A stretch of DNA of 64,000 nucleotides. Origin: Spirochaetia bacterium (GTDB taxonomy: Bacteria > Spirochaetota > Spirochaetia > DSM-16054 > Sediminispirochaetaceae). This document shows, piece by piece, positions 13,350 to 31,160 of the stretch. The translations under genes and the position numbers were made by a program. The stretch is from contig JAIPFV010000001.1 in assembly GCA_021736475.1 (NCBI GenBank), forward strand, positions 56,991-120,990, in the 5' to 3' direction. Positions within the stretch are counted from its first letter, which is position 1, and every line of letters begins with the position of its first letter. Under the pieces are notes generated by a model that did no database searches, was not told where the DNA came from, and was given only the letters and a program-made list of their open reading frames with translations.

Positions 13350-13389
13350 ATTCTCAATTTGGAAGTCAGAAGACTTCCAAATTGAGAAT
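13350..13389. repeat. Perfect 18-bp stem / 4-nt loop inverted repeat overlapping the rsmD stop codon
   Basis: attctcaatttggaagtc-agaa-gacttccaaattgagaat. Confidence 0.95.
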
Positions 13390-13929
13390 CGCTGACCTAA
13401 AAAAACGAAGGGTAGAACCGCCGTAGGCCCTCACATCACTGACCTCCAGCTGCTCGATATGCTCCGGCCATTGTTCCGGGCTAGGGTGATGAATGAGGCA
13501 GCGACCTTGCGGCGCTAACAGGCCGCTTTGGGCCACCGAGCGAATCAGCTCAATTTTTTGTTCGTATTTGAAGGGGGGATCCAGGTAGATGAGGTCAAAC
13601 TTGGTATCTTGGCGGGATGCCTGCGTGGCAATGTAGCGTTCGGCCGGTTGTATAATCAGCCGGATCGGACTTTCGACAAAGGAAATATTTTTGCGAATAA
13701 CCGGTGTTTTCCGACGGTCTTTTTCTACCAAAACAACCGGCTCCGCTCCACGTGAAGCGGCTTCAATACCCACCACTCCCGAGCCCGTGAAGAGATCCAG
13801 AAATGAAAGTCCTTCAATATTACCTAATATTGAAAACATCGATTCACGCATTCTGTCCATGGCCGGTCGGATAACTCCCGGGGGACATTGAACTCTTCGG
13901 CTGCGGTAGATTCCTCCGGTTATTCTCAT
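13366..13929 (-). CDS. rsmD: 16S rRNA (guanine966-N2)-methyltransferase
   Basis: FLDLFTGSGVVGIEAASRGA, DLIYLDPPF motifs. Confidence 0.95.
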   Translation of the reverse strand: MRITGGIYRSRRVQCPPGVIRPAMDRMRESMFSILGNIEGLSFLDLFTGSGVVGIEAASRGAEPVVLVEKDRRKTPVIRKNISFVESPIRLIIQPAERYIATQASRQDTKFDLIYLDPPFKYEQKIELIRSVAQSGLLAPQGRCLIHHPSPEQWPEHIEQLEVSDVRAYGGSTLRFFRSAILNLEVF

Positions 13930-13976
13930 GCGCTCTCCCTTAATTATCGGTGTGTCTATTTAACGGTGCGTCTGCC

Positions 13977-16043
13977 TCAGCCGCCGGTCAGCGTATCTTC
14001 CGGAAAGGGCGGACAGCATTCGAGGGTTCGCCGTAGTTGCTGGTGGTCCGGCTGCAGCAAGCCCGGATCAGCCTTAATAATCCGAAAGGCATCTTTGCGG
14101 GCCTTATCCAGCAGGGTAAGATCTCCACTTAAATCGGCAAATTTAAGCCGCATAAAACCCGACTGCCGGGTGCCAGTCACTTCTCCCGGCCCGCGGATTT
14201 TGAGATCTTCCTCGGCGATAAAAAAACCGTCACTACTTTCTTTCATCACCAGCAGGCGTTGCTTGCCCTCTTCGGTAAGCTCTTCGGAGTATACCAGAAA
14301 GGCGTAAGATTGCAATGTGCTGCGGCCTACCCGGCCTCGCAGCTGATGCAGCCCGGCCAGACCGAAACGTTCGGCATGCTCAATGACCATACAGGTCGCA
14401 TTTTTGATATCTACCCCAACTTCCACCACGCTGGTTGATACCAGAATATCGATAGTTCCCTCGGAGAAGGCGTGCATCCGTTCCAACTTCTCTTCTTCGC
14501 GTATTTTAGAATGAATAAGCGCTACTTTATAATTGGGAAAGATAGTGGAGCTAAGCTGCTCGGCAGCCCCCTCGGCGGCTTTCAAAGAGCTTTTCTCCGT
14601 ACCCCGAATCAGGGGATACACAAAATAGGCCTGATGTCCGCGTTCCAGTTCGTGGCGAACCGCATTATACACCTTATCGGCATTTGACTGACGGGCGAGG
14701 TGAGTTACAATCTCTTTCCTACCCGGCGGCATTGTGCGAATGGAGGACACATCCAGGTCTCCGAAAAATGTCAATGTTAAGGTGCGGGGAATCGGGGTTG
14801 CGGTCATTAACAGCAGGTCGGGGGCATGGCCCTTTTCCATCAGCTGAGAGCGCTGTTCTACCCCGAATTTGTGCTGTTCATCGATTATGACCAAGCGCAA
14901 GCTTTGAAATACCACCTCCCGGGTAAACAGGGCGTGGGTACCGATAAGCAGATCAACCTCTCCGGTACGAAGGGCATCTAATAGAGGTCGGCGTGCATTT
15001 TTATCCACATTACCGCTAAGAAAGGCAACTCTCACCCCCAGCGGCTCCAGCAGTTCCGCAGCTCTTTCCGCATGTTGCCGGGCCAAAAGTTCGGTTGGAG
15101 CTAAAAAAGCAGCCTGGTACCCGGCTTCGATCACCGGAAGTGCCGCTAAAAATGCGACTAGAGTTTTTCCGGAACCCACATCACCCTGCAGGAGCCTCCC
15201 CATCGGGTGAGCGCTGTCCAGGTCCTGTTTGATCTCTGTGAGGACGCTGCGCTGGTCGGTGGTGAGGGAAAAGGGGAGGTTCTTTAGGCAGCTCCGTTGC
15301 AGCTTTTCCGGGAGAATTTTGGGGCTGCGGCGACTGTCTTTCCGGGCCAGAGAGTGGCGGGCAACCACCAACTGGAAATAGAGCAACTCCTCGTAGGCCA
15401 GACTCTGCCGTGCCTGGGCGGCAGAGTCATGGGAGTCGGGAAAATGGAGCTGGGCAAGCGCCCTTCGCTTTTCCAGGTAACGGTAATGACTGCGGAGGCT
15501 CTCCGGCAGTTCGTTGTCGATATATTTTCCGTAGGTTGTCAGGGCATCTTGCACCGCCTTCCGCAGTACAGACTGATTCAGTTTACCTGAAAGCGGATAC
15601 ACCGGAAGAATCGATCCAAACTTTGTGTGTTCCGATGGATACGGTTCGGCTTCAAAGCTGCTTGACTGCAAGTCACCGTAGCGGTATGAGAATTGTCCGT
15701 ACAGATAAAATTGATGCCCCACTTTCAGAACATGCTGCAAAAAATTGCGGTTAAAACACACCAGTACTCCAGTAGCAGTCTCATCCTTTACATATACCTT
15801 AAGCGTTTTTTTATGTTCCGGACCGAAAAAATCATGAGCCACTACCTCAACTAGTGTGTTGACGGTTGCATCCTGATATCCCTCCTTAAGAGGTACTATG
15901 CGGGAGCGATCTTCATAATCCCGGGGCACATGCAGCAGGAGGTCGGCGACCGACATGATGTCTAGTGTTGCGAGCTGCCCGGCGGTGTGCGGGCCGATGC
16001 CTTTGAGTTTCGTTATAGAATGCTTAATTTCCCCTAACAGCAT
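13977..16043 (-). CDS. recG: ATP-dependent DNA helicase RecG
   Basis: OB wedge domain, GDVGSGKT, DEQHKFGV, LRGRVGRS; likely start ATG 16043 (MLLGEIKHSI) rather than 16124. Confidence 0.95.
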   Translation of the reverse strand: MLLGEIKHSITKLKGIGPHTAGQLATLDIMSVADLLLHVPRDYEDRSRIVPLKEGYQDATVNTLVEVVAHDFFGPEHKKTLKVYVKDETATGVLVCFNRNFLQHVLKVGHQFYLYGQFSYRYGDLQSSSFEAEPYPSEHTKFGSILPVYPLSGKLNQSVLRKAVQDALTTYGKYIDNELPESLRSHYRYLEKRRALAQLHFPDSHDSAAQARQSLAYEELLYFQLVVARHSLARKDSRRSPKILPEKLQRSCLKNLPFSLTTDQRSVLTEIKQDLDSAHPMGRLLQGDVGSGKTLVAFLAALPVIEAGYQAAFLAPTELLARQHAERAAELLEPLGVRVAFLSGNVDKNARRPLLDALRTGEVDLLIGTHALFTREVVFQSLRLVIIDEQHKFGVEQRSQLMEKGHAPDLLLMTATPIPRTLTLTFFGDLDVSSIRTMPPGRKEIVTHLARQSNADKVYNAVRHELERGHQAYFVYPLIRGTEKSSLKAAEGAAEQLSSTIFPNYKVALIHSKIREEEKLERMHAFSEGTIDILVSTSVVEVGVDIKNATCMVIEHAERFGLAGLHQLRGRVGRSTLQSYAFLVYSEELTEEGKQRLLVMKESSDGFFIAEEDLKIRGPGEVTGTRQSGFMRLKFADLSGDLTLLDKARKDAFRIIKADPGLLQPDHQQLRRTLECCPPFPEDTLTGG

Positions 16044-16065
16044 ATGCCCGCAGCCAATGGTCGTA

Positions 16066-16656
16066 TTAGAAAGGCAGGGACTGGAAGAAGCGGGAAAGGT
16101 GAAACACGATATAGTTGCCCGCAATAGAGGCTACCAGCAGACTAGCTCCAGTGATGGCAAGACCGGTCTGCAGAGTGAGGAACCTTCGCTTAAAAAAAGT
16201 GTTGTGAATCCAGTTCAACAGAGGGGTAATCAGTAGATCGATCGTCCGAATGAAGGGATGTACCGTATTAGCGCTCACAAGCGAGGCCACAAAGCGGATG
16301 ACAATGAGGACAATGAACAGAGTCATCAAAAACGATACCGCTGACCATACGGCGCTGAGTATGATTGCCAAAATGATTCCCAGGGAGATTGAACCGTACA
16401 TTGCCAGGCGATTGAGAATATTCATACCGATAACCAGCACCAACAGACCGGCAATTGGAGAGAAATCTACCGTACCGACCTGGAGAAATCGAAACCGTCG
16501 AAAATAGTTAAGATAAGGATCGGTGAGTGAGCGGATTATCTCATACGGTTTACCGTAGGATGATACCCCGCTGAACCAGGTTAGCAATACTCTGACGAAT
16601 ATCAGAATCATGTAGATGCTCAATATTCCGCTTAAAATTTTAGCTATAGTTACCAT
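16066..16656 (-). CDS. YggT family membrane protein
   Basis: SGVSSYGKPYEIIRSLTDPYLNYFRRF signature; start ATG 16656 with GGAAGGAAA RBS. Confidence 0.85.
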   Translation of the reverse strand: MVTIAKILSGILSIYMILIFVRVLLTWFSGVSSYGKPYEIIRSLTDPYLNYFRRFRFLQVGTVDFSPIAGLLVLVIGMNILNRLAMYGSISLGIILAIILSAVWSAVSFLMTLFIVLIVIRFVASLVSANTVHPFIRTIDLLITPLLNWIHNTFFKRRFLTLQTGLAITGASLLVASIAGNYIVFHLSRFFQSLPF

Positions 16657-16697
16657 AACGTTTCCTTCCTTGTGTCTGCTGGACTGGGTCTTCGGGA

Positions 16698-19600
16698 CTA
16701 GGCGGTCCAGATATCCTCTATTGTAGGATACCTGCTCAACTCTTCCAATACATTTTGGGCTGAAGAGAGGGTTATTTGGCTGGATGCCTTGATTACTGTT
16801 TCCCTCTGTCCGTTTGCATTGTTCAGATGGAGGAAAAGCGGGCATGCACCCTTATGGTCAAAAAGATATGAGCGGAGATTGTATAGCCCTTCCTCGGACA
16901 TCGTATTTCGTTCAAGGCGAATGTGAACCTCTCTGGTTTCAGTTTCCTTGAGCTCTTCCGGCTTCAGAATAGTTTCCACGATAAACTTTGGATCGCCCCG
17001 GCTGAGGTCAAGCTTTCCTGAACAGGCTAGAATACTGTCGACTTCAATCACATCCCGGTGCTCTTCCCATTGATCGGAGAAAACAACCAACTCAATGGTC
17101 CCGTTGTAATCTTCGATCTGTAAAAATGCCATTGGACGCCCTTTTTTTGTAAAAATAGAACGGACACTAGTGACGATTCCCAGCAGTGAATATTTTGCGT
17201 TAGGTACAAAGTGATCTGGGCGGCCCAGGTTGATGTTTACAGTCCTTTTCCAAGTTTCGCGATAGGTATCGAGGGGGTGGCCTGAAACATAGAAACCCAA
17301 CAGGGACTTTTCCTGCTGCAGCCTTTCCTGAGTCGGCCATTCATCGAACTCTTCAAAATCAAAGCGCTCCATCTCTTCCTGCTGGGCGCCCTCGAATAAA
17401 GAGGTCTGCCCAAATTGCTCCCGCTCCTTTTTCTTTTGAATAAATTCGAGGGCTTGGTCAAGATTCTCCATCAGAGTTGCCCGTGCATGACCAAGACTGT
17501 CGAAGGCTCCGCACTGAATAAGTGTCTCAATTACCTTGCGGTTGACTGACCGCAGATCTACCTTGCCGAGAAAATCCATGAAATTCTCGTAAATGCCCTC
17601 TGTCTTCCGGGCTCGGAGTATCTCCTCAACTGCCCCTTTGCCTACATTTTTGATTCCTACCAGGCCGTACACAACCCGTCCGTCGCTCACCGAGAAATTG
17701 TGGTCCGATAGGTTAATATCGGGCGGCAGGATTTCTATTCCCATAGCGGCGGTTTCTGTAATATAGATAGACAGTTTATCAGGATTGTTAATTTCGTTGG
17801 TGAGGTTGGCGGCCATAAACTCAGCCGGGTAATTTGCCTTCAGGTACGCGGTATGGTAGGCAATTACCGAATACGCTGCCGCATGACTTTTATTGAAACC
17901 GTACTGTGAAAAGGGTATTAACATCTCAAAGATATCCTCTGCATGCTGTTTACTATGACCCTTTTCAATGGCCCCGTTGATGAAGTCGACCTTCAACTTT
18001 TCCATCTCTTTAAGTTTCTTCTTTCCCATTGCCCGCCGCAGAATATCTGCTTTTCCAAGAGAGAAGCCACCGATAATTTGAGCTACCTGCATTACCTGTT
18101 CCTGGTAGACAATAACTCCGTAGGTTGGTCGTAGAATCTCTTCAAGACTCTTATCGGGATACTGAATTTCCTGCTGTCCGTTTTTGCTGGCCACAAACTG
18201 GGGAATATACTGCATAGGTCCCGGGCGGTACAGGGCGTTCAATGCAATTAAGTCCTCAATTGTCTCCGGCTTGGCCTGGCGTAGGATATTCTGCATGCCG
18301 CTGCTTTCAAACTGGAATATACTGGTGCTTTTTCCTTCTCCTAACAAGTCAAAAGTAGTTTTGTCAGTTTCAGGAACCTTCTCTATATCAAAGTCGATAC
18401 CCCGCCTGCGGATAAGCTTTTCCGTATTTCTGATGAGAGTGAGGGTTTTCAGTCCTAAAAAGTCCATCTTTACCAGGCCGCACTCTTCAAGCTGATCCAT
18501 AGTGTACTGGGTGGAAATTGCCCCGGTGCGAGGCTCAACGTACAGGGGCACATATTCGGTGAGCGGTTCACGGCCGATTACAACTCCGGCAGCATGGGTT
18601 GAGGCGTGACGTGAGAGACCTTCCAAGGTTCGGGCGGTCTGTATAAGCTCGGTGTAAGCACCTCCCTGCTCTTCCACTTCTTTGAGGCGTGGTTCGGCCT
18701 CGAGAGCTTTGTCGATGGTGATTCCCAGATCACCGGGTACCAGTTTGGCTATCCGGTTGGTTTCCACTAAAGGAATATCAAGCACTCGGGCGACATCCCG
18801 CAGTACCGCTTTTGCTTTTAAGGTTCCAAAGGTAATTATTTGACCTACCTTGTCCTTGCCGTATTTTTCGGTAACGTAGTCGATTACTTCTCCCCGGCGT
18901 TCAAAGCAGAAGTCGATATCGAAGTCTGGCATTGAAACCCTTTCCGGGTTGAGAAAGCGCTCGAACAGAAGATTGTATTTGAGTGGTTCTATATTGGTGA
19001 TGCCGAGGGCATATGCGACTATCGAGCCGGCACCTGAACCGCGTCCCGGACCAACGGGTATATCTTTTTTACGTGCAAAATCGATAAAATCCCAGACTAT
19101 CAAAAAGTATCCGGGGAAACCCATAGAGTTAATGATGCCGAGCTCATGCTCGGCCCTCAATCTTAGCTCCTCTGTTACCGCACCGTAGCGCTCTTTTAAG
19201 CCTTCGAGAGTAATATGGTGTAGATATTCCTCGAGAGTGTCAAATTCGGAGGGTATCTCATAATGGGGGAGGATTGGACCGGGTAGGGGGATTTCCAGGT
19301 CACACTTATCGGCCACGGCAACCGTATTATCGAGAGCCTTCGGTATATGGCTGAACAACCTGCGCATTTCTTCTTCGCTCTTCAAATAAAACTGATCCGA
19401 ATCGAATTTGAGACGGTCGCTCTGATCTTTCTTTTTGTTGGTGCCGATACAGATGAGGATATCCTGGGCATTGGCGTCCTCACGCTTGATATAGTGGATG
19501 TCGTTGGTTGCAATCAGGGGTAATCCGGTTTCTTCGGACATACGGATAAGCTCCTGGTTTACCTCGTTTTGTTCTGGAATACCGTGATCCTGCAGTTCGA

Positions 19601-20120
19601 GATAGAAGTTGCCTTCCCCGAAGAGGCCCTGATAATAACGAGCTTTTTCAACTGCTGATTCGTAGTTTCCCTGCAGAATGAGCTGGGGTATTTCTCCGGC
19701 CAGACAGGCGCTTGCCCCTATGAGCCCTTCAGAGTAGCTTTCCAGAAGCTCGTTGTCAATTCGCGGCTTATAGTAAAAACCTTCGGTATAGGCCCGACTC
19801 GAGAGGCGCATCAGGTTTTTGTAGCCCTCTTTGTTACGGGCAATTACCAGCAAGTGGAAATACTTGTTCTTTTGTTCGGACCCCTTTTTATCGAACCGTG
19901 ATCCGGGGGCAATGTAAAATTCGCAGCCAATTATCGGCTTTATGTCATAGGCTTTACAGGTTTTGTAGAACTTCAAAACACCAAACATGTTTCCATGGTC
20001 GGTTATCGCCAATTGCTGCATACCCAATTCGGCTGCAGTTTTTACCATTTTCTCAATGTTGGCGGCTCCGTCCAGTAGTGAGTAGTCGGTGTGGTTATGT
20101 AGATGGACAAAATTGGGCAT
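16698..20120 (-). CDS. dnaE: DNA polymerase III subunit alpha
   Basis: PHP N-terminus (FVHLHNHTDYSLLDG), GPGRGSGAGSIVAY, PDFDIDFC; RBS AAGGAG precedes ATG 20120, so this start is preferred over 20138. Confidence 0.97.
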   Translation of the reverse strand: MPNFVHLHNHTDYSLLDGAANIEKMVKTAAELGMQQLAITDHGNMFGVLKFYKTCKAYDIKPIIGCEFYIAPGSRFDKKGSEQKNKYFHLLVIARNKEGYKNLMRLSSRAYTEGFYYKPRIDNELLESYSEGLIGASACLAGEIPQLILQGNYESAVEKARYYQGLFGEGNFYLELQDHGIPEQNEVNQELIRMSEETGLPLIATNDIHYIKREDANAQDILICIGTNKKKDQSDRLKFDSDQFYLKSEEEMRRLFSHIPKALDNTVAVADKCDLEIPLPGPILPHYEIPSEFDTLEEYLHHITLEGLKERYGAVTEELRLRAEHELGIINSMGFPGYFLIVWDFIDFARKKDIPVGPGRGSGAGSIVAYALGITNIEPLKYNLLFERFLNPERVSMPDFDIDFCFERRGEVIDYVTEKYGKDKVGQIITFGTLKAKAVLRDVARVLDIPLVETNRIAKLVPGDLGITIDKALEAEPRLKEVEEQGGAYTELIQTARTLEGLSRHASTHAAGVVIGREPLTEYVPLYVEPRTGAISTQYTMDQLEECGLVKMDFLGLKTLTLIRNTEKLIRRRGIDFDIEKVPETDKTTFDLLGEGKSTSIFQFESSGMQNILRQAKPETIEDLIALNALYRPGPMQYIPQFVASKNGQQEIQYPDKSLEEILRPTYGVIVYQEQVMQVAQIIGGFSLGKADILRRAMGKKKLKEMEKLKVDFINGAIEKGHSKQHAEDIFEMLIPFSQYGFNKSHAAAYSVIAYHTAYLKANYPAEFMAANLTNEINNPDKLSIYITETAAMGIEILPPDINLSDHNFSVSDGRVVYGLVGIKNVGKGAVEEILRARKTEGIYENFMDFLGKVDLRSVNRKVIETLIQCGAFDSLGHARATLMENLDQALEFIQKKKEREQFGQTSLFEGAQQEEMERFDFEEFDEWPTQERLQQEKSLLGFYVSGHPLDTYRETWKRTVNINLGRPDHFVPNAKYSLLGIVTSVRSIFTKKGRPMAFLQIEDYNGTIELVVFSDQWEEHRDVIEVDSILACSGKLDLSRGDPKFIVETILKPEELKETETREVHIRLERNTMSEEGLYNLRSYLFDHKGACPLFLHLNNANGQRETVIKASSQITLSSAQNVLEELSRYPTIEDIWTA

Positions 20121-20180: not shown

Positions 20181-21050
20181 TTAATAGAATAACTCCGAGG
20201 TTGGTTCATGCAGGGCGCTGAGGTACCACTGTAACAACCTAAGAGCCCGTTGTTTTTGGAAAAGAGTCACTTCCCCCGGGAGATCCATCAAAGAGCTGCG
20301 GAATAGACTTCGGGCTTCAGCCCTCATTTTTTCACTCAGGGGTACTTTCTTGCCGCTAATGAGAGTTTCCAGTTCACGGTCGCGGAGTACTGACCTGCCA
20401 AGAAAGGTAAATGCAACCCGGAAATCGGTTATCTCTCCTTTTTCTACAGCCGTAAGCGCACTAAAGGTGAGAGAGGATTTTGGTTTTGTAAACGGATCGC
20501 CAATCCGCTGGTAAAACTGGAGGTTCCAATCGACGAAAGGAATTCGAATTCGGCTGATAAACTCTCCTGTCTCTAAGGCCGGTTCACCGGTTTTAGTAAA
20601 TAAACGCGGAACTTGTACCCAGCGGCTACTGCCGGACTTACGCAGCTCTACCCGTGCATCTAAAATGGTCAACGGACCAAAGGTGTTGAGTCGGCGCGAC
20701 TGATGCCCCAAATTACCGCCCAGAGTACCCATATTGCGAACTGCAGGATGAGCAATATTGTGGAGAGCATGGGTAAAAACTTTCGGTAAAACATGCTGCC
20801 CCACCTTTAATATTCGACTGATAGGGACACATGAACCTATTTCAAAGTAACGTTCTGTACGGCTTATGCGCTGGAGCTCCGGGATTCTACTAATGTGCAG
20901 TACCATATCCGGCAACTCAAACGGCCCGTCTCCCTTCTGCTCTCGGGCAATCGCGGTGGACCCGGCCAATACCAATGCCTCAGGATACTCCTGATAGGTA
21001 CGTAGTAGTTCATTGATCGAAGTCGGCTGAAACACCTTACTATCGCTCAT
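20181..21050 (-). CDS. Xanthine dehydrogenase-family FAD-binding subunit
   Basis: LVLAGSTAIAREQ, HPAVRNMGTLGGNLGHQSR motifs. Confidence 0.88.
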   Translation of the reverse strand: MSDSKVFQPTSINELLRTYQEYPEALVLAGSTAIAREQKGDGPFELPDMVLHISRIPELQRISRTERYFEIGSCVPISRILKVGQHVLPKVFTHALHNIAHPAVRNMGTLGGNLGHQSRRLNTFGPLTILDARVELRKSGSSRWVQVPRLFTKTGEPALETGEFISRIRIPFVDWNLQFYQRIGDPFTKPKSSLTFSALTAVEKGEITDFRVAFTFLGRSVLRDRELETLISGKKVPLSEKMRAEARSLFRSSLMDLPGEVTLFQKQRALRLLQWYLSALHEPTSELFY

Positions 21051-21519
21051 GGAGCCGCCTCCGCCGGTATTCGCCCGCCCGGATAACTCCGCGAGCCAAG
21101 TTATGAAAATTGGTGCAGGGGCAGTAGGTGCCTGAGAATGCTTCCAAAACTTCCTGCTGGTTGGGATCGAGGGTACTCTCTAATATTGATTGGGTTATAA
21201 CAACCTTAGCCGAGAGACAGTAGGTGCAGGGATATGCCTGCTCATCATGAAAACCGGATATGATATCGTTATATTCAAGGGTGTCGATGATCCCTTCATA
21301 GGTTATTATCGACCTTCCCTGTACTGCAAAGCCCGGAAGCAGACAAGAGTAGACCAGCTCACCATCCAATAGAATTGCACAATTGCCGCACTGCCCGTCA
21401 TAGCATGAGGGATGAAGGCTTTGAAGCTGCAGTTCTCTGCGAAGGAAGTCGACCAAGCGGGTTGAGGTTGAGATATCGGCTTCTACAGCCCTTCCATTCA
21501 GGGTCAAGCTGAGTTTCAT
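21040..21519 (-). CDS. Xanthine dehydrogenase-family 2x[2Fe-2S] subunit
   Basis: CYDGQCGNCAILLDGELVYSC plus second cluster CTYC...CPC. Confidence 0.9.
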   Translation of the reverse strand: MKLSLTLNGRAVEADISTSTRLVDFLRRELQLQSLHPSCYDGQCGNCAILLDGELVYSCLLPGFAVQGRSIITYEGIIDTLEYNDIISGFHDEQAYPCTYCLSAKVVITQSILESTLDPNQQEVLEAFSGTYCPCTNFHNLARGVIRAGEYRRRRLHER

Positions 21520-23582
21520 GAAGGCTCCTCCAGATAACTCTGAATTGTTTCCGCGTTGAGGGGAATACGATCAAAATAAACACCCGTAGCTTGGCTCAAA
21601 GCAGTTACAAAGGCTGCCGGCACTAATGATTCGGAGATTTCATTTATTCCTCCGGGGAGACCCTTTGCACGATTTGCAAACACCACCGACACCGGTGGTA
21701 GCCGCAGGTTAGGTGTATCGTGTCCCTCAATCACGTAATCTTGATAGTACCGGGGATTTACCCTTTGTTCTCCCATAGCCCAGGCCAGCGCCTCGTAAAT
21801 ACCTCCCTCTGCAATCGATACTGCGTATTGGGTGTTATATACAAGTCCGCAATCGAAGGCGGCCCACACTCCGCGTACTTCCGGTACGAGGGTCAGCGGG
21901 TCCAGTTGTACTTCTACGACCACCGCACCCCAGGAAAGACTATGAAAAGGTACTCCCGTAAAACTGGAGGCGTCCCAGGTGCTACGTTTAGCGGAGAGAA
22001 TGTTGCGCCGTACTTCGATCGGCAACGGCTTATTAAAACGCTGTTTGCGGATATAATTACAGCAGCGGTCAACTAAACTGGTATACACCGTAACCGGCAT
22101 ACCTAACATCATCGGCCCGGAGTCCGGTAAAGTGTCGGTATCGCCGGAGGCAATTTCCACTGATTCAGGTGAGATCCCCAAGATTTCCCCGGCTCGACGC
22201 TTCCAAATGGTTTTTATAGCTTCCGGTACGGTCATAGTTCCGCACTCAATAGTAAGCTGGTCCTTTTTATCAAGAGTGGCTTCAATACCCCAGTTCTTGT
22301 TAGTGCCGGGTTTATCGGTGAATCCATTACCAGTGAAGCCGGTGGCTATACCTATACCACGTAGAAACCGACGTGAAGCTTTGACGGAGTTACGACGCTT
22401 GCGGATCTGTTCGTAGGCTGAATGTTTACGGTAAAAGTCCGACTGTTCAACAACTGTATCTACGAGTTTTTCTAAGGGCATATTTGGAAGGTGCGCACCG
22501 GTTATGATGTGTTTTTCCTTGGTATGGTTCTTTTTCCAGTCACCGGGGTTGAGCTGCGAGAATTCTGCTAAACGGGAGAAATGGACTTCCGTTGCGAACA
22601 AACTCTGAGAGACACCCAGTCCTCGATAGATATTCATCGGCGGGGCGGATGTCTGAATTGCTTCTGCGGTAATTGATACATTCGGCACCTGGTAATAGCT
22701 GCCCGAAGTGATAACCGCCCTCTGCAGCAGCTCTTTTGTAAAAAGTGGATATGCTCCTACATCAAAGCGCATATGGGTATCATGGGCAATTATTTTACCG
22801 GCTTCATTCAGAATAGAAGTGCTTTTTACATGTACCGGCGCTTTGCGGGTGGTAAACTTTTCAGCTTCTTTGGGGGATAAGAGCAGACGGGCTGCCTTTC
22901 CGGTATTGTGACACACTAGAGAGGCCATTGCGGCTAGAATTGAGGGAAACACCACTTTTTCTCCGTATGCAGGGCTGGGATTGGTCTGCACAACTTTTAT
23001 CTCGCTCTCATCAATACCAAGTACTTCTGCAATTGTAGAGCGCACATGAAACGGCCAGTGAGTTGGTGTATATACTGTAAAACGGCCATCCTGCAATTCG
23101 ACATATGCCCCAATAGGGGCTCTACTTACATGGCTTTCAATTGTGGTGCGGTATTCAGCCTCTACAATTTGAGTTGTTTCTTCAAACTCCTTTGCAGGAT
23201 TGCCCCTGGACAAACGAACAGTATCGACGGTTTGATCTTTAGAGGCTGGCTCAAAGGCAAGCAAAGAAAAATCAGTCTCATAAGAAATTTTTAACCGTCG
23301 CTCCGCTAAGTCAAGCGTTTCCGGATCCTCAGCCGCAATCAGCAGAATCGGCTCTCCCTCATAGGCGATATTTCCGTTACTCAGCAGGGGCATCTCTTCC
23401 TCTACCACCGCAACCCGGTTAATTCCTTCAATATCATTAGCCTCAAAGATGAGGATATCCTCCGGCAAGTCGGTACTTTCTATCGAAGAGACCCTCCCCC
23501 GTGGAATATCTGAACGAACAATCTTCAGATGCAACATTCCGCGGCTGGCAAACTCATCTATAAAGCGGCGGCTATTTTCCAC
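21516..23582 (-). CDS. Xanthine dehydrogenase-family molybdopterin-binding subunit (divergent)
   Basis: VVAVVEEEMPLLSNGNIAYEGEPI-type N-domain and ISESLVPAAFVTAL C-terminal Glu region; GTG 23582 with GAAGGAG RBS is preferred over TTG 23630. Confidence 0.82.
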   Translation of the reverse strand: MENSRRFIDEFASRGMLHLKIVRSDIPRGRVSSIESTDLPEDILIFEANDIEGINRVAVVEEEMPLLSNGNIAYEGEPILLIAAEDPETLDLAERRLKISYETDFSLLAFEPASKDQTVDTVRLSRGNPAKEFEETTQIVEAEYRTTIESHVSRAPIGAYVELQDGRFTVYTPTHWPFHVRSTIAEVLGIDESEIKVVQTNPSPAYGEKVVFPSILAAMASLVCHNTGKAARLLLSPKEAEKFTTRKAPVHVKSTSILNEAGKIIAHDTHMRFDVGAYPLFTKELLQRAVITSGSYYQVPNVSITAEAIQTSAPPMNIYRGLGVSQSLFATEVHFSRLAEFSQLNPGDWKKNHTKEKHIITGAHLPNMPLEKLVDTVVEQSDFYRKHSAYEQIRKRRNSVKASRRFLRGIGIATGFTGNGFTDKPGTNKNWGIEATLDKKDQLTIECGTMTVPEAIKTIWKRRAGEILGISPESVEIASGDTDTLPDSGPMMLGMPVTVYTSLVDRCCNYIRKQRFNKPLPIEVRRNILSAKRSTWDASSFTGVPFHSLSWGAVVVEVQLDPLTLVPEVRGVWAAFDCGLVYNTQYAVSIAEGGIYEALAWAMGEQRVNPRYYQDYVIEGHDTPNLRLPPVSVVFANRAKGLPGGINEISESLVPAAFVTALSQATGVYFDRIPLNAETIQSYLEEPS

Positions 23583-24765
23583 TCTTGCTCCTTCGATAAT
23601 ATTGAGTTCCAATTGAAATGACCGCTTCAATTATGCGTTCTACTTCCACATCAGATAAGTCCGGATAGATAGGAACGCTAAAAGCGGTGCGATACACCCG
23701 CATGGAAACCGGAAAATCTTCAGGGGAAAAACTGTATCGCTTGGCATAGTAACTCATAATATGCAGGGGTATATAATGTACAGAAGTTCCGATACCCTTA
23801 CTCTGTAGTAGTTCAATATACTTATCACGATCAATGGTAAGCTTTTCCGGACGAATTCTCAAGATGAATAAATGCCACGCGTGCTGTTCCGGGGCTGAAG
23901 GCAGCTGTAGAAAATCATATGCAGCCCAGGCTTCTAAATATCGTTTTGCAATACTGCGCCTTCTTTCTAAAAACTCATGGGCTCGCTTTAGCTGTACCCG
24001 ACCAATGGCAGCTGCAACGTCCGGCAAATTGTACTTGTAACCGGCTGCTACCACGTCGTATTTCCAAGACGTACTGCTATCGGTATAGCGCTTCCATACT
24101 TCCCGGTCGATACCGTGCAAACGCATTACTTTGATGCGTTCGGCGATTTCGGAATTTGAGGTGGTAACCATACCACCTTCACCAGTGGTAATGGTTTTTG
24201 TTGCGTAGAAAGAAAACACCCCTACATCACCTATGCAGCCTAAAAATGAATCTCCATAACGTACCGGGAGGGCGTGGGCAGAATCTTCTACCAGAGCAAT
24301 AGAGTTTTCTTGAGCAATCTTTTGCAGAGATTCCATATCGCTGGGATGGCCGCCCATATGTACCGGAAGCAAAGCCGCCACCTTGGAGTTAGCCGCGGCA
24401 TCTGCGACCTGGCGGGGGTCGATGGTGAGACTTGCTTCATCGATATCAACGAACAAGGGATCGGCCTGGAGATAGCGAATAACCTCTGCGGTTGCGGTAA
24501 AGGTGTAGGGAGTGGTAATTACCTTATCCCCGGCCTTCACGCCAACCGCTTCAAGGGCCAGATGCAAGCCGGCGGTAGCGGAGTTTACCGCTAAGGCGTG
24601 GTGAGCTCCGGTCAGTTCGGCGAACTCCTGTTCGAAAGCCTGGGCTTGTCCTGCGGTTGTCAGCCAGCCGCTGCGCAGTACCTGCAGTACCGCCTGCTCT
24701 TCTTCCCGGCCTATGGAGGGGCGGGCAAAGGGGATAAACTTTGGTGCATTAGTAGATTGGTTCAT
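23572..24765 (-). CDS. DegT/DnrJ/EryC1/StrS family sugar aminotransferase
   Basis: PLP fold: ALAVNSATAGLHLAL, EDSAHALPVRYG, FSFYATKTITTGEGGM. Confidence 0.93.
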   Translation of the reverse strand: MNQSTNAPKFIPFARPSIGREEEQAVLQVLRSGWLTTAGQAQAFEQEFAELTGAHHALAVNSATAGLHLALEAVGVKAGDKVITTPYTFTATAEVIRYLQADPLFVDIDEASLTIDPRQVADAAANSKVAALLPVHMGGHPSDMESLQKIAQENSIALVEDSAHALPVRYGDSFLGCIGDVGVFSFYATKTITTGEGGMVTTSNSEIAERIKVMRLHGIDREVWKRYTDSSTSWKYDVVAAGYKYNLPDVAAAIGRVQLKRAHEFLERRRSIAKRYLEAWAAYDFLQLPSAPEQHAWHLFILRIRPEKLTIDRDKYIELLQSKGIGTSVHYIPLHIMSYYAKRYSFSPEDFPVSMRVYRTAFSVPIYPDLSDVEVERIIEAVISIGTQYYRRSKSGK

Positions 24766-26227
24766 TTTGAGCCTTTCGAATAGTGGGAAGGTAGCGTTGT
24801 AGCCTCTCTCTTAGGAGCAGCCGATTCCGATAGTCTCCGGCTGTATCAGGATGAAAAAAGCAAATTGAATGAAGCTCCTCTAACACTGAGTCAATAGTCT
24901 CTGTAAAACGGGGAATTCGTTCCAACCTGTTGATACCGGTATGTTCGGTACTCTCCAGCTGCTCTCCCTCGGACCATAGCCGTTCATTTACCTTTTCTCC
25001 AGGCCGCAACCCGATATAGCGGATCGGAATTTCAACTTCCGGGGTAAAGCCGTAAAAGCGAATCATCTGCTCGGCTAAATCCCGTATCAGCAGTGGTTCT
25101 CCCATATCCAGAATATATACATTGCCGCCTTCTACTACCCCGCCGGCTTTCAGCACAAGTGAAGAAGCCTCGGGAATTGTCATAAAGAATCGGGTTGCCT
25201 CGGGGTGGGTGATGGTAACCGGGCCGCCCTTAAGAATTTGCTTTGTAAACAGCGGGACGATACTCCCTCGAGATCCGAGCACATTGCCGAAGCGGACCAC
25301 GATAAAATCTCCAGCTCCACCATTGTTTCCAAGTACTATCTCCTCGGCTAAGCTTTTTGAGGCTCCATAAATGCTGGTTGGGTTTACTGCCTTGTCGGTT
25401 GAAACCAAAACAAACCTCGGCACATTGTTTGCTCTGGCCGCCTCAACCACATTCTTTGTACCGAACACATTATTTTTTATTGCATCTATCGGATTTTCTT
25501 CCAGCAGGGGCACATGCTTATATGCGGCACAATGAAAAATTACATCCGCCTTAAGCCGTCGTATGATGAAGTTCATATAATGGGCATCCTGCATCTCACC
25601 GATGATCGGGACGATGGTTGCCTTTTCACCCACCCCCTCTTCCTGCAGAATCCGAAGCTCTTTTTCGATCTCATACACACTGTTTTCGCCATGATCGAAA
25701 AGATATAGACGTTCGGCCCCACCGGATAAGAGCTGTCGAGCCAATTCACTGCCAATGCTGCCGCCGGCCCCGGTTATCAGAACCCGACGTCCACGCAGAT
25801 AATCGAGGCTCTCCTTCAGGCAAATTGAAATCTGGTTGCGGCCTAATAGATCCTGAGCGGTAATTTCGCGGGTTTGGATAAGGTGCGCATCTCCGTCAAT
25901 GATTTGTGAGAGCTTAGGAAGAATACGAATACGATTCAGCTTGGTATTTTGAAGAATGGTGTAAATACGGCGAAGCTGTTCGCTGCCGGCAGCTGGAATT
26001 GCGATTAATGCCTCATCTGCCGGTGTATGGGCTAAAATCGATTGTATTGATGAAATCGGCCCGTATACGGGAATCCCATTAATAGTTGTGCCGATTTTCT
26101 CCGGATCGTCATCAATAAAGGCAACCACCTTGCCTAGAATACCCTTTGACTTAATCTCTTCGGCAATTTCGTGGCCTGCAAAACCGGCCCCGATAATGTA
26201 AATATTACTTTGCTTTTCTTGGATCAT
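24749..26227 (-). CDS. Nucleoside-diphosphate-sugar epimerase/dehydratase (CapD/FlaA1/PglF-like)
   Basis: Two Rossmann domains: IGAGFAGHEIAEEI and VLITGAGGSIGSELARQLL; STDKAVNPTSIYGASK. Confidence 0.93.
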   Translation of the reverse strand: MIQEKQSNIYIIGAGFAGHEIAEEIKSKGILGKVVAFIDDDPEKIGTTINGIPVYGPISSIQSILAHTPADEALIAIPAAGSEQLRRIYTILQNTKLNRIRILPKLSQIIDGDAHLIQTREITAQDLLGRNQISICLKESLDYLRGRRVLITGAGGSIGSELARQLLSGGAERLYLFDHGENSVYEIEKELRILQEEGVGEKATIVPIIGEMQDAHYMNFIIRRLKADVIFHCAAYKHVPLLEENPIDAIKNNVFGTKNVVEAARANNVPRFVLVSTDKAVNPTSIYGASKSLAEEIVLGNNGGAGDFIVVRFGNVLGSRGSIVPLFTKQILKGGPVTITHPEATRFFMTIPEASSLVLKAGGVVEGGNVYILDMGEPLLIRDLAEQMIRFYGFTPEVEIPIRYIGLRPGEKVNERLWSEGEQLESTEHTGINRLERIPRFTETIDSVLEELHSICFFHPDTAGDYRNRLLLRERLQRYLPTIRKAQNEPIY

Positions 26228-26762
26228 CTTTACTCTTCTTTTCTAGAAATTCAAACCCAAAATCAATTAAAAACGACTGTTCGTACAATGAAAGTTTAAC
26301 TTTCGCCCGCTTCTTGCGTTTGTTTACCTTCACTATGAGCCCCTCAAGCCCCTTCATCGGACCGTCAAGCACAACTATCCGGTTATTTTCATCAAAAGAG
26401 ACGGTAGATTTGTCTACAATCTCTCCATAACTCAGAAAGTGCAGAAGCAAGCCTTTGTCATCTCCGGTCAGGGGTTCAATATTCTGGTTACTCTTCAAAA
26501 ATCGAATAAAACCGGAGGTACGCTTAAGTGTCCAGTATACCTCTGTGGGTAACTCTTCCGCTTCATAGAACAGATAGCCTGGAAATATCGGAGCCAGCTC
26601 CTCTTTTGTCTTACCCCGCCTTCGTACGGTTAGTTTTCTGCGGGGCCATAAAAAGCGACCCTCCTCAAACCATTCAGGGCAGTCGACCCGAAGTGCATTT
26701 CGGGCTAATGTTAAGTATTTGGGTTCTTCCCGGGTCAATACCTGTATGACAAAATACTTCAT
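26205..26762 (-). CDS. NusG-like specialised antiterminator (LoaP/UpxY-type)
   Basis: NGN domain (FPGYLFYEAEEL... TSGFIRFL) and KOW-like IVVLDGPMKGLEGLIVKVNKRKKRAKV; first gene of a polysaccharide-type operon. Confidence 0.82.
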   Translation of the reverse strand: MKYFVIQVLTREEPKYLTLARNALRVDCPEWFEEGRFLWPRRKLTVRRRGKTKEELAPIFPGYLFYEAEELPTEVYWTLKRTSGFIRFLKSNQNIEPLTGDDKGLLLHFLSYGEIVDKSTVSFDENNRIVVLDGPMKGLEGLIVKVNKRKKRAKVKLSLYEQSFLIDFGFEFLEKKSKDDPRKAK

Positions 26763-26892
26763 AAGGCGAGTACCAGTTTTTTCTGTGTCACTTTTGCGGT
26801 TAAATTATTCACAATTATGAATAGAAAATACCATGGAAATGGGTACACTGCAACCACTTCAGCGGTTCTTCATTAGTTAGATTCTCTTTCCG

Positions 26893-26964: not shown

Positions 26965-27456
26965 ATGAAAAAAACGGTCTTAAGTCTTTTGTTCTTGGGA
27001 ATACTCCTGTCATCAGCTTATGCTGAAACAGTTATGCTTTTTTCGGAAGAACCTACAGGAATCGGAAACGAACGTGATTCTATAATATATATTGAGGACG
27101 GGATCATGGACGTGTTTTTCAGCGCCGGCCATATCATTTTCAACGGCGGGTACCAGCAGTTTGAGCCGGAAAGTGCAGCCGCTCAGAGTACATTCGGCGA
27201 TACACCATCTTTTCGTATAGCCAAGTCGGGGGGTGCAGATTATATGCTCCAGGTTCAGCTGGAGTTTACCCAGGATGACCAGGATTCCCTTCCGGTGAAA
27301 GCCCTCTATAGTTTTTACCACCTCAATTCTGAAGAAAAATTGGCCGGTGGCGAAGTTCTGCTTACTGAAGCCGGAGAGCGGGAGGAGATGGAAGAGGAAG
27401 TTTTGATCCGCCGTATGGGAAGACATGTCGGCACCAGGGCAATGGAGGGAATGTAG
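26965..27456 (+). CDS. Hypothetical secreted protein
   Basis: Clear signal peptide MKKTVLSLLFLGILLSSAYA; GGGGGG RBS. Confidence 0.7.
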   Translation: MKKTVLSLLFLGILLSSAYAETVMLFSEEPTGIGNERDSIIYIEDGIMDVFFSAGHIIFNGGYQQFEPESAAAQSTFGDTPSFRIAKSGGADYMLQVQLEFTQDDQDSLPVKALYSFYHLNSEEKLAGGEVLLTEAGEREEMEEEVLIRRMGRHVGTRAMEGM

Positions 27457-27523
27457 TCTGTTCCGGCAGAAAATTCTCAATAAGTCGTGCACAAACCCCG
27501 AGAATGAGATATGGGAGTGTAAT

Positions 27524-29071
27524 ATGACAGATAAACACCGTTTTTATCAAAAAGCGACGCTATTTACATATGCTGTGGCCCTCTTTTTGCTTACTAGTAT
27601 TTCGGGAGGAACCCTATGGGCTCAAGATTCATATTGGGAAGGAAATGTAACCACCGCCCCTTATGGTTTGTTACCTCATAGCGGCATGTACGCCGCCTCT
27701 AATGCGTTCCCGCTGGATACGAAGGTATCCATTACACACCCCTCTGATGCGACTACAATTGAGGTGCGTATTGTTGCGCGTTTAGACCGGGGGCGTGTGT
27801 TTATGCAGGTTTCCCGGGATGCCGCCCAGAAATTGGGAATCAGGGAAGATGAAATCATCACCGTACAAGTTACTCCGGTAGAAAGAGAAGACGATCTAAT
27901 AGAATCCTCCCTTGGCCAAGAGAAGCCCTTTTCAGCTGATCCTGATCTAAACCCTTCAGAGGCAGTCCAAGATGAGAGCCTCGCATTAGTGCAGGAATAT
28001 TTGGCTGAACAGCCGGAGCCAGAACCGGAGCCAGAACCGGAAGAGAGAGTGGCTGTTGTTCAAGAACCCGAGCCGCCGGAGGAAACGGAACAGCAGGACC
28101 AGGATACAGTGAGCATGGCTGAAGAAGAGACTGAAGCGGCACCGGTAGAGGAAGAAGTGATTGAAGAAATTACCCAGGAACCACAGGCGGACACTCTTCC
28201 GGTAAGAGTTCAGCCCAGGTCTAAGCTGACTGTAGTGCTGCCTGAACCCAGCCGTGTACCCGATGAGACAGTATCTCCATCTGAGACCACAGGTCCGCGT
28301 ACCGCAGAGCTTGAACCGCTGTTTATGCAACAGAAAGATAAAAGGTATACTCCTAATGCTCCTGAATTGCCGCAGGACACAGCTGTTGCAGAAGGACCTT
28401 CCTCTTCGCTGGAAGCTGTTTCACCATTATCCACGAAATACACCTCGGAGTTTGAGGTAAGTCATTCTCCGGAGCCACCACCCGCGCTGCTCCCTTCCAC
28501 AGATCTCGCATCAGCTGAAGTTGAAGCTGAACCTGAAGAAGAGGGAGAAGGTGAGCCTCCTCACAGCCCTCTCTTACCTGTAGCCGAGGAGAGTGAGCTT
28601 GCTGAGAGAAGTGTAGAGCCAGAGCCCGAGGAGGAAATTAAGGAATTACCCGAAGATGCCGAGCTGGTTCTGGTTCCTGCTGAAGAGCGACCGCCAGAGG
28701 GGCCGGTAACAGAACCTAAGGAGCAAGTACAGCAGGAAACAGAGACTGCTGAAACTGAAAAGCGTGTCACATCGGCAGCTGAGGAAGTCTCCACGGGTGA
28801 TATCGCAGCGGGTGACATTGCAGTAAAGCGCAGCATTGATAAGGATAGTTATTACCTGCAGGTAGCGGCTTACTCCAAACTCGATTTGGCACAATCTCGC
28901 GGACAAGAGTTGTCCCTTAGATATCCGGTTACCCTCTATATGGAAGAGAGAGCCTCTGCAGCACCGTATAAATTGATGATCGGTCCGCTGAATGAGGATG
29001 AGAGCGGCACCCTGCTGTATACTTTTACCTCACGTGGTTTTCGCGACGCGTTTATTCGAAAGGGTAATTAA
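27524..29071 (+). CDS. RlpA-like protein: DPBB domain, Glu/Pro-rich linker, C-terminal SPOR domain
   Basis: PYGLLPHSGMYAASNAFPLDTKVSI... RLDRGRVFMQVSRDAAQKLGI (DPBB-like); DSYYLQVAAYSKLDLAQSRGQEL... KLMIGPL (SPOR); ATG 27524. Confidence 0.78.
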   Translation: MTDKHRFYQKATLFTYAVALFLLTSISGGTLWAQDSYWEGNVTTAPYGLLPHSGMYAASNAFPLDTKVSITHPSDATTIEVRIVARLDRGRVFMQVSRDAAQKLGIREDEIITVQVTPVEREDDLIESSLGQEKPFSADPDLNPSEAVQDESLALVQEYLAEQPEPEPEPEPEERVAVVQEPEPPEETEQQDQDTVSMAEEETEAAPVEEEVIEEITQEPQADTLPVRVQPRSKLTVVLPEPSRVPDETVSPSETTGPRTAELEPLFMQQKDKRYTPNAPELPQDTAVAEGPSSSLEAVSPLSTKYTSEFEVSHSPEPPPALLPSTDLASAEVEAEPEEEGEGEPPHSPLLPVAEESELAERSVEPEPEEEIKELPEDAELVLVPAEERPPEGPVTEPKEQVQQETETAETEKRVTSAAEEVSTGDIAAGDIAVKRSIDKDSYYLQVAAYSKLDLAQSRGQELSLRYPVTLYMEERASAAPYKLMIGPLNEDESGTLLYTFTSRGFRDAFIRKGN

Positions 29072-29075
29072 GACT

Positions 29076-31160
29076 ATGCCTGAAAGTGAGTATAATGAAG
29101 CTCGGAGTGAGATAGAACGCCTCTCCGAGCTTTTGCATCGTTATCAACGTGAATATTATGTTGAAGGTCGACCAAGTGTTTCTGACCTTGAATACGACCG
29201 GCTCTTTGATCGTTTGGCAGAGCTCGAGTCGAAGTATCCTGAGCTAAAACAGCCCGACTCACCCACCCAACGAGTCGGAACGGAACCCACAGAAACATTT
29301 CCCGAAGTTGAACATACAGTTCCAGTCTTGAGTCTTGATAAAGCCTACAGTTCCAATGAAATAGCCGATTGGATTCAACGTACCACCAAGCGCAGCGGAC
29401 AGGCCCTTAGCTTTGTGGTTGAAGAGAAAATTGACGGGGTAGCCATTGTGCTCTATTACGAGGCCGGCCGTTTGATACGGGCTGTAACCCGCGGAAACGG
29501 TTTTGTGGGAAATGATATCACTGCGAATGTCAAAACCATCCGAACGGTGCCTCTACGTTTACCGGAGGCGATAGATGTTGCTGTACGGGGAGAGATCTAC
29601 TTGCCGAAGGACCGTTTTGAAGAGATAAACCGGAAAATGGAAACTCCCTATGCGAACCCACGGAATTTGGCAGCCGGGAGCCTCCGCCGCATAAAGAGCA
29701 GTGAAGTGGCCCGTATTCCTTTGAATATGTTTGCTTATGAGGGAGCCTTTCCACAACAAGAGTTAAGTCATATCGAGGTTCTGGAAAAGCTGACCGTACT
29801 CCAGTTCCGTGTGAGCAACCGTATTGGAGTGTTTTCAAATCGTCTTGATACTGAAGATCTGGAAGCCCGATATCCGGAGTGGAGTTTTGGAAAATTCGAA
29901 GAGCTTCCGGAGTATATTGAACAGGCAGCCTCTGAACGGGATGCGCTGGAATATGAAATCGACGGTCTGGTGGTAAAAGTAAATGAGTTGCAGGTTCGTG
30001 AGGAATTGGGATATACCGGTCATCATCCGCGCTGGGCTATCGCTTATAAGTTTGAATCTCCCCAGGGAACCACTACCATAAAGACAATTGAAGTGCAGGT
30101 GGGAAGAACCGGTCGGATTACTCCTGTTGCCCGGGTTGAACCGGTGCAGATCGGCGGGTCGACGATTAGCAATGTAACCCTGCACAATCAGGCCTATATC
30201 GAGATGCTTGAGATTGCAGAGGGTGATCAGGTGACCGTTTCTCGCCGCGGGGATGTAATTCCGGCGGTGGAAAAGGTTGTTCAGAAGAATGAAGTGGGCA
30301 ATCCGGTGTGGCACATACCCGAGAAATGTCCCTCCTGTGGTTCCAGGCTGGAAGTGTACGGGGCTCACCATTTCTGCAGAAACAATCAATGCCCCGATCA
30401 GGTACGGGGGCGGCTCCACTTTTTTATTGGCCGGAATCAGATGGATATCGAGAATCTTGGTCCCGAGACTGCTGAACTGTTGATTGAAGAGGGCTTTGTG
30501 CAAGACCTTCCAGATCTGTACCGCTTCGACTTTGAGCGCTTGAAGGGTTATCCGGGCTTTGGTGAGAAGAAAATCGCCGCGATTAAGGCCGGACTTGAGA
30601 AAAGCATGTCTCAACCCTTCCGTGTGGTGTTGCCCTCATTAGGTATTCCCGAAGTGGGCCCAAATGTAACCGAGCTTTTAATCCGGGCAGGCTATACTTC
30701 TATAGATAAGATAATAAGAACCGCAGAACAAGGTGAGTCTGAGAAACTGGTGGATATTAAGGGTATCGGCGAAAAAACGGCCGCCACGATAATCGAGGAG
30801 TTCTCCCGACCTGAAGTCAAACAACGAATTGAGGAATTAAAGAAGGTGGGATTACAATTTGAGACTACTGCTGCAGACAAAACTATTGAGGGTGAGGACT
30901 CAATACCCCCTCTGTTTGAAGGTGAAAACTGGTGTGTGACAGGCAGTTTTGAGCGTTTTAATCCCAGGTCAAAAGCCATGGAATATGTCAAAGCCGGCGG
31001 TGGGCGAACCAGCAGCCAAGTCAGCGGCAGCACAACCCATCTTCTGGCCGGAAGCGGCGGTGGAAGCAAACTGCAGAAAGCACAGCAGCTGGGGGTAGAA
31101 ATTGTAAGCGAAGAGGAGTTCGTGGAGCGACTAAAGGACGAGGGAATACAGATAGCATGA
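29076..31160 (+). CDS. ligA: NAD-dependent DNA ligase LigA
   Basis: EEKIDGVAIVLYY active site, tetracysteine CPSCGSRL...CRNNQCPDQ, HhH and BRCT domains. Confidence 0.97.
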   Translation: MPESEYNEARSEIERLSELLHRYQREYYVEGRPSVSDLEYDRLFDRLAELESKYPELKQPDSPTQRVGTEPTETFPEVEHTVPVLSLDKAYSSNEIADWIQRTTKRSGQALSFVVEEKIDGVAIVLYYEAGRLIRAVTRGNGFVGNDITANVKTIRTVPLRLPEAIDVAVRGEIYLPKDRFEEINRKMETPYANPRNLAAGSLRRIKSSEVARIPLNMFAYEGAFPQQELSHIEVLEKLTVLQFRVSNRIGVFSNRLDTEDLEARYPEWSFGKFEELPEYIEQAASERDALEYEIDGLVVKVNELQVREELGYTGHHPRWAIAYKFESPQGTTTIKTIEVQVGRTGRITPVARVEPVQIGGSTISNVTLHNQAYIEMLEIAEGDQVTVSRRGDVIPAVEKVVQKNEVGNPVWHIPEKCPSCGSRLEVYGAHHFCRNNQCPDQVRGRLHFFIGRNQMDIENLGPETAELLIEEGFVQDLPDLYRFDFERLKGYPGFGEKKIAAIKAGLEKSMSQPFRVVLPSLGIPEVGPNVTELLIRAGYTSIDKIIRTAEQGESEKLVDIKGIGEKTAATIIEEFSRPEVKQRIEELKKVGLQFETTAADKTIEGEDSIPPLFEGENWCVTGSFERFNPRSKAMEYVKAGGGRTSSQVSGSTTHLLAGSGGGSKLQKAQQLGVEIVSEEEFVERLKDEGIQIA

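Follow-up and report, generated by a model that had tools for sequence, protein, structure and literature searches.

Organization of the six-gene cluster

The window analysed here is a stretch of 64,000 nucleotides from a Spirochaetia bacterium. Six open reading frames occupy its minus strand between positions 20181 and 26762, in the order LoaP, CapD, DegT, Mo subunit, FeS subunit and FAD subunit (Table 1). Open reading frame positions and profile matches agree, which bears out the six tightly packed genes and the gene families named in the first-pass annotation. The matches to NF033641, PF02719 and PF01041 likewise support its view that a LoaP-type NusG paralog and sugar-nucleotide enzymes stand at the head of one unit. 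With GTG 23582 taken as start of the Mo subunit, successive genes overlap by 23, 17, 11, 4 and 11 bp. The Mo subunit combines the Pfam domains MoCoBD_1/2 with Ald_Xan_dh_C. Because the genes are packed so tightly, the six are likely to be read as one transcript.

Table 1. Features of the cluster and its flanks, in window coordinates. The distance to dnaE is counted from its likely start, ATG 20120.
Feature	Position	Strand	Evidence or remark
Candidate operon promoter, TTGCAG-N17-TATTTT with TTCCATGNTAYTTT	26825..26853	-	Element common to 4 loci
LoaP-type NusG paralog, 185 aa	26205..26762	-	NF033641 antiterm_LoaP, 135.1 bits, cut-off 125
CapD-type NDP-sugar 4,6-dehydratase, 492 aa	24749..26227	-	PF02719, E 8e-109
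DegT/PseC-like PLP aminotransferase, 397 aa	23572..24765	-	PF01041, E 2.5e-116
Moco-binding-subunit homologue, 688 aa, degenerate Moco motifs	21516..23582	-	XDH fold, motif loss
[2Fe-2S] subunit, 159 aa	21040..21519	-	Fer2/Fer2_2
FAD subunit (FAD_binding_5), 289 aa	20181..21050	-	PF00941, E 4.4e-35
dnaE, syntenic neighbour	16698..20120	-	60 nt downstream of FAD gene

Transcription from the candidate operon promoter would give a 5' UTR some 56 nt long. The same promoter-like element is found upstream of the LoaP start at loci L037, L041 and L042, the last two of which are near-identical. It is not among the matches of the consensus promoter scan of the window, and the scan counts lie near the shuffled expectation (17 versus 13.6 for promoters and 14 versus 12.6 for terminators), so that they speak neither for nor against an internal promoter. 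A further promoter-like site (20168-20139, minus strand, 10/12) is located in the gap before dnaE, and dnaE may have its own transcription start.

Like the LoaP of Bacillus velezensis (PMC12691694), the cluster LoaP scores above the NF033641 cut-off and heads a co-directional biosynthetic operon. Unlike the B. velezensis system, the operon is short, and the UNCG leader hairpin bound by LoaP in Bacillus (PMC12691694) is not found by folding or by a UNCG scan in the leader of the window. A UNCG-type hairpin is present in 1 of 34 leaders (L058). The target of the cluster LoaP could lie elsewhere in the genome.

Conservation of the operon in Spirochaetia

We compared the gene neighbourhood across 98 genomes from this class. 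The order LoaP-CapD-DegT-Mo-FeS-FAD, mostly with dnaE downstream of it, recurs at the homologous loci, and the relatives keep these genes together and not at separate loci. Junctions in the relatives are mostly no more than 20 nt apart, with median gaps of -8 nt between LoaP and CapD and of -17, -4, -4 and -17 nt at the following junctions. This recurrence of tight junctions is far beyond chance. CapD orthologs, called at E <1e-150, occur as a single copy in 58 of the 98 genomes from 25 families with 55-77% identity, and one is present even in a genome of 1.14 Mb (G077). In a phylum-wide sample, CapD orthologs at E <1e-140 were found in this class and in no other. Gene order is still kept in G015 and G040, where the Mo subunit is merely about 20% identical. 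Because LoaP is missing at some loci (e.g. L077, L080-L082), we regard CapD-DegT-Mo-FeS-FAD as the core. Adjacency to dnaE is frequent and has been lost in several families. The possibility of a recent fusion of two operons, raised in the first-pass annotation, is rejected because the synteny is class-wide and old.

The flanks show further regularities. On the same strand, dnaE is followed by genes that we named by eye as YggT-like, RecG-like and RsmD-like (13366-20120), and in many relatives the genes behind dnaE encode proteins of similar size (~195, ~690 and ~177 aa). On the plus strand (26965-31160), a divergent block encoding a 163-aa protein, a 548-aa SPOR-like protein and LigA faces the operon; since it does so in many families, the whole neighbourhood is old. 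Individual loci deviate. At L079, an extra 435-aa gene, which by eye resembles an S41-type peptidase, is inserted between CapD and DegT (L079:6276-7583). At L046 (G008:C6:19638-21038), CapD is broken by two TGA and one TAA codons and DegT appears truncated, while CapD of G033, from the same genus, is free of stops.

A probable role of CapD-DegT in flagellin glycosylation

In CapD, residues T277, D278 and K279 (STDK) as well as Y287 and K291 (YxxxK) are at least 93% conserved in 40 orthologs. DegT conserves the motif FYA[TN]K...GEGG and the PLP lysine K190 in about 40 orthologs. The pair resembles PseB/PseC or LegB/LegC, with a 4,6-dehydratase carrying the YxxxK triad, a DegT aminotransferase, and NeuB and Maf encoded in the same genomes. 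CapD differs from PseB by an additional Rossmann domain at its N-terminus, is not encoded beside neuB and scores below the equivalog cut-off (180 versus 408 bits); DegT also stays below the cut-off for PseC (360 versus 424 bits).

Flagellin is present in 58 of 58 genomes with CapD and in 18 of 40 without it (Fisher p 2.5e-11, a value that overstates independence, as the genomes are related). Maf and strong NeuB matches occur in nearly all flagellates and, with the exception of one marginal Maf match, are absent from the non-flagellates of the 98-genome sample (Maf searched as PF01973). The 18 flagellin-positive genomes without the cluster CapD include some incomplete assemblies and six genomes of family f20, in which flagellin is present and NeuB, Maf and CapD were not found. 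G024, which is flagellated and has no cluster, encodes a PseB-PseC-PseI-like run with PseB and PseI above curated cut-offs. Within family f12, the flagellated genus has CapD-DegT, and the non-flagellated genus lacks both genes and keeps the trio of Mo, FeS and FAD subunits; in two of these non-flagellate genomes LoaP is located directly in front of the trio. The small genome G077, which may be Treponema pallidum with the cluster genes around TP0077-TP0081, contains CapD, NeuB, four Maf-type matches and the cluster DegT as its only strong sugar aminotransferase.

From the co-occurrence of CapD-DegT with flagellin, NeuB and Maf, we conclude that CapD-DegT probably feeds nonulosonate glycosylation of flagellin. 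Flagellin glycosylation is reported for Treponema denticola, a member of the same bacterial class. PMC9481697 describes a 450-Da glycan on its FlaB/flagellins that is essential for filament assembly and reports it as novel. Flagellins, Maf and NeuB are likewise encoded in the cluster genomes.

LoaP/UpxY proteins usually regulate polysaccharide operons, and CapD-DegT might instead serve a cell-surface or periplasmic polysaccharide, the flagellin correlation then being an effect of lineage. The relatedness of the genomes leaves room for this reading, and it is also in line with a Wzz/GNVR-like gene that in some lineages immediately precedes LoaP or CapD (L051:4523-5782, L074:3674-5092 and L083:5062-6300). 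The cluster itself, however, contains no glycosyltransferase or polymerase. In f12, it is the flagellated genus that keeps CapD, and the 1.14-Mb genome G077 has retained CapD together with NeuB, the Maf-type proteins and one strong sugar aminotransferase. We consider a polysaccharide role unlikely, at a level that still deserves attention, and favor flagellin as the destination of the CapD-DegT product.

The Mo subunit is predicted to retain the fold and has lost the cofactor motifs

An AlphaFold (AF2) model of the Mo subunit of the window reaches pLDDT 88.8 and pTM 0.90. In Foldseek, xanthine oxidase and aldehyde oxidoreductase structures match this model with TM 0.81-0.86 at 16-19% identity. 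As far as the model goes, the subunit retains the xanthine dehydrogenase (XDH) fold. Among the six MoCoBD proteins of this genome, the window copy is the weakest match, with 139.5 bits versus 228-276 bits. Aligned to the canonical paralogs, it has SPAYGEK in place of GGxFGGK, VPE in place of GQG and, at the SRxT region, GMPVT. At the positions of E1261 and R880 it still has Glu (in GINE) and Arg, respectively.

We extended this comparison to a Mo-subunit tree of 58 clade members and 18 canonical sister XDHs, leaving out can_L109, a mis-picked ORF. The motif columns were set by alignment to canonical paralogs and not by structure superposition, and for the residue numbers we assume bovine numbering. 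At the position of E802, Glu is found in 0 of 58 clade members versus 18 of 18 sisters; at the catalytic position E1261, it is found in 20 of 58 versus 18 of 18. Arg880 is mostly replaced in the clade and the GG of GGxFGGK is gone in most members, whereas all 18 sisters keep both. Residues W176, E284, R515, F516, L520 and P521 are conserved in the clade only. The same motif losses are seen where lineages without CapD carry the trio alone, and canonical paralogs within the same genomes keep the pterin and Mo motifs. The clade sits beside the canonical XDHs with a mean root-to-tip distance of 2.79 versus 1.58. Its support is 0.998 without L087 and 0.25 with L087. This sequence keeps MGQG and KGIGE and looks like an intermediate. 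At L115, the Mo subunit (next to FeS L115:5189-5635) has no Pfam match, yet the gene order is kept.

We searched each of the 98 genomes for MoaC, MoeA and MoaA. All three are present in 27 cluster genomes and all three are missing in 29 of the 58 CapD-cluster genomes, 15 of which are at least 97% complete. The degenerate protein is the sole MoCoBD protein of 24 genomes in which moaC and moeA were not found. The same genes went undetected in 21 genomes with canonical MoCoBD proteins, including that of the window, whose assembly (94% complete) has five canonical paralogs and no match for MoaC, MoeA or MoaA; G001, which belongs to this genus, has all three. Since canonical paralogs thus occur in genomes lacking moa genes too, we treat the missing moa genes, taken alone, as weak evidence for the absence of the molybdenum cofactor (Moco). 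G006, G011, G032, G036, G054, G069, G092 and others are near-complete, contain canonical MoCoBD proteins and yielded no MoaC, MoeA or MoaA; assembly gaps, scavenging or a missed pathway may be the reasons.

The trio shares with molybdenum hydroxylases the MoCoBD fold as well as FeS and FAD subunits with their cofactor motifs, but not the Moco-binding motifs and active-site residues. It could in principle still be a true molybdenum hydroxylase whose active site is unusual and whose Moco is home-made or scavenged, acting on an NDP-sugar, a purine or an aldehyde. Fold and subunit set are those of the xanthine oxidase family, 27 of the cluster genomes carry moaA, moaC and moeA, and some members, that of the window included, keep the Glu at the catalytic position. 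Against this, unrelated residues replace the pterin and Mo motifs across the 58 members while canonical paralogs of the same genomes retain them, and the trio is kept in the 24 genomes in which no Moco pathway was detected. We consider a genuine hydroxylase very improbable. The functional Mo-hydroxylase proposed in the first-pass annotation is not supported, given the loss of Moco-binding and catalytic motifs throughout the clade: the protein is probably not one, and members of the clade are unlikely to hold the molybdenum cofactor.

FeS and FAD subunits are maintained by selection

The [2Fe-2S] subunit of the window contains all eight cluster cysteines. Of 40 aligned subunits, 35 have the full set of cysteines; the set is degraded in L054, L065, L071, L077 and L094, and this loss at few loci weakens the case for a universal redox role. 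In two further FeS subunits (L115:5189-5635 and L116:6051-6650), only the cysteines of the second cluster are left and gene order is kept. Residues T32, G111, G112 and N113 of the FAD motif are conserved. In close pairs, the Mo subunit has a dN/dS of about 0.05-0.20, and the FeS and FAD subunits give similar values. Low values are also obtained for pairs in which no moa genes were found (L078/L079, L080/L081, L083/L084 and L062/L063). Purifying selection acts on all three subunits.

The loss of Moco motifs throughout, the loss of FeS cysteines in L065, L071 and L077 and the frequent proximity of dnaE would all suit a non-catalytic scaffold or regulator, a pseudoenzyme through which redox state might be coupled to the operon or to DnaE. 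The conserved FAD motif and most FeS cysteines suggest redox use instead, and several families have lost the adjacency to dnaE, so that we regard this role as rather improbable.

The trio might also be a Moco-free flavoprotein performing a redox step within the flagellin glycan pathway, for example on an unusual nonulosonate cap. In most loci the trio genes overlap tightly and are conserved together with CapD-DegT, and the flagellin glycan of T. denticola is described as novel (PMC9481697). But the trio is under purifying selection in lineages without flagellin, Maf, strong NeuB and CapD, and we give this alternative a small chance. Its retention in non-flagellates lacking CapD-DegT argues that the role of the trio is separable. 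For the same reason, an oxidative step on a sugar, as suggested in the first-pass annotation, is less likely.

Discussion

The explanation that we favor, with somewhat better than even confidence, is an ancient Spirochaetia operon with two halves under one LoaP-headed transcript. In the first half, CapD and DegT would probably convert a UDP-HexNAc to a UDP-4-amino-4,6-dideoxy sugar. These would be the two opening reactions of a nonulosonic-acid pathway. The later steps, carried out by NeuB synthase and Maf transferases encoded elsewhere, would decorate the periplasmic flagellins. The second half would form a heterotrimer in which the fold, the FAD site and, in most cases, both [2Fe-2S] clusters are preserved and which no longer binds Moco. 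This heterotrimer is most likely a flavin/FeS protein in which the former Mo domain would act as a substrate- or partner-binding body, and its function would not depend on flagella.

In fold, domain families, the set of Mo, FeS and FAD subunits, FAD motif and most FeS cysteines, the trio is like the three-subunit bacterial XDH or PucCDE. It differs from these enzymes in lacking the pterin/Mo-binding motifs and usually the catalytic motifs, in its clade-specific residues W176, E284, R515-F516 and L520-P521, and in persisting in genomes where no Moco pathway was detected. More tentatively, and with less than even confidence, we propose that an XDH-fold complex dropped Moco across the class and that its former Mo domain gained a new activity, centred on flavin or in some other way independent of Moco. 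In the open-licence literature, we found no report on this cluster, on its genes in flagellin glycosylation or on a Moco-free XDH clade in spirochaetes.

The family profile says xanthine dehydrogenase, while the sequence evidence makes it unlikely that Moco is held. Accordingly, we no longer read the locus as a sugar operon with an unexpected Mo-hydroxylase; we see in it an old operon with probable flagellin-glycan genes and a conserved, Moco-free complex of XDH fold. The cluster offers candidate first steps of spirochaete flagellin glycosylation, and the non-flagellate lineages represent a natural experiment that separates the two operon halves. If the proposal is true, a fold normally identified with its metal cofactor would have taken on a second, conserved role throughout a bacterial class, in a Moco-free complex that even a spirochaete with a genome of about 1 Mb has kept.
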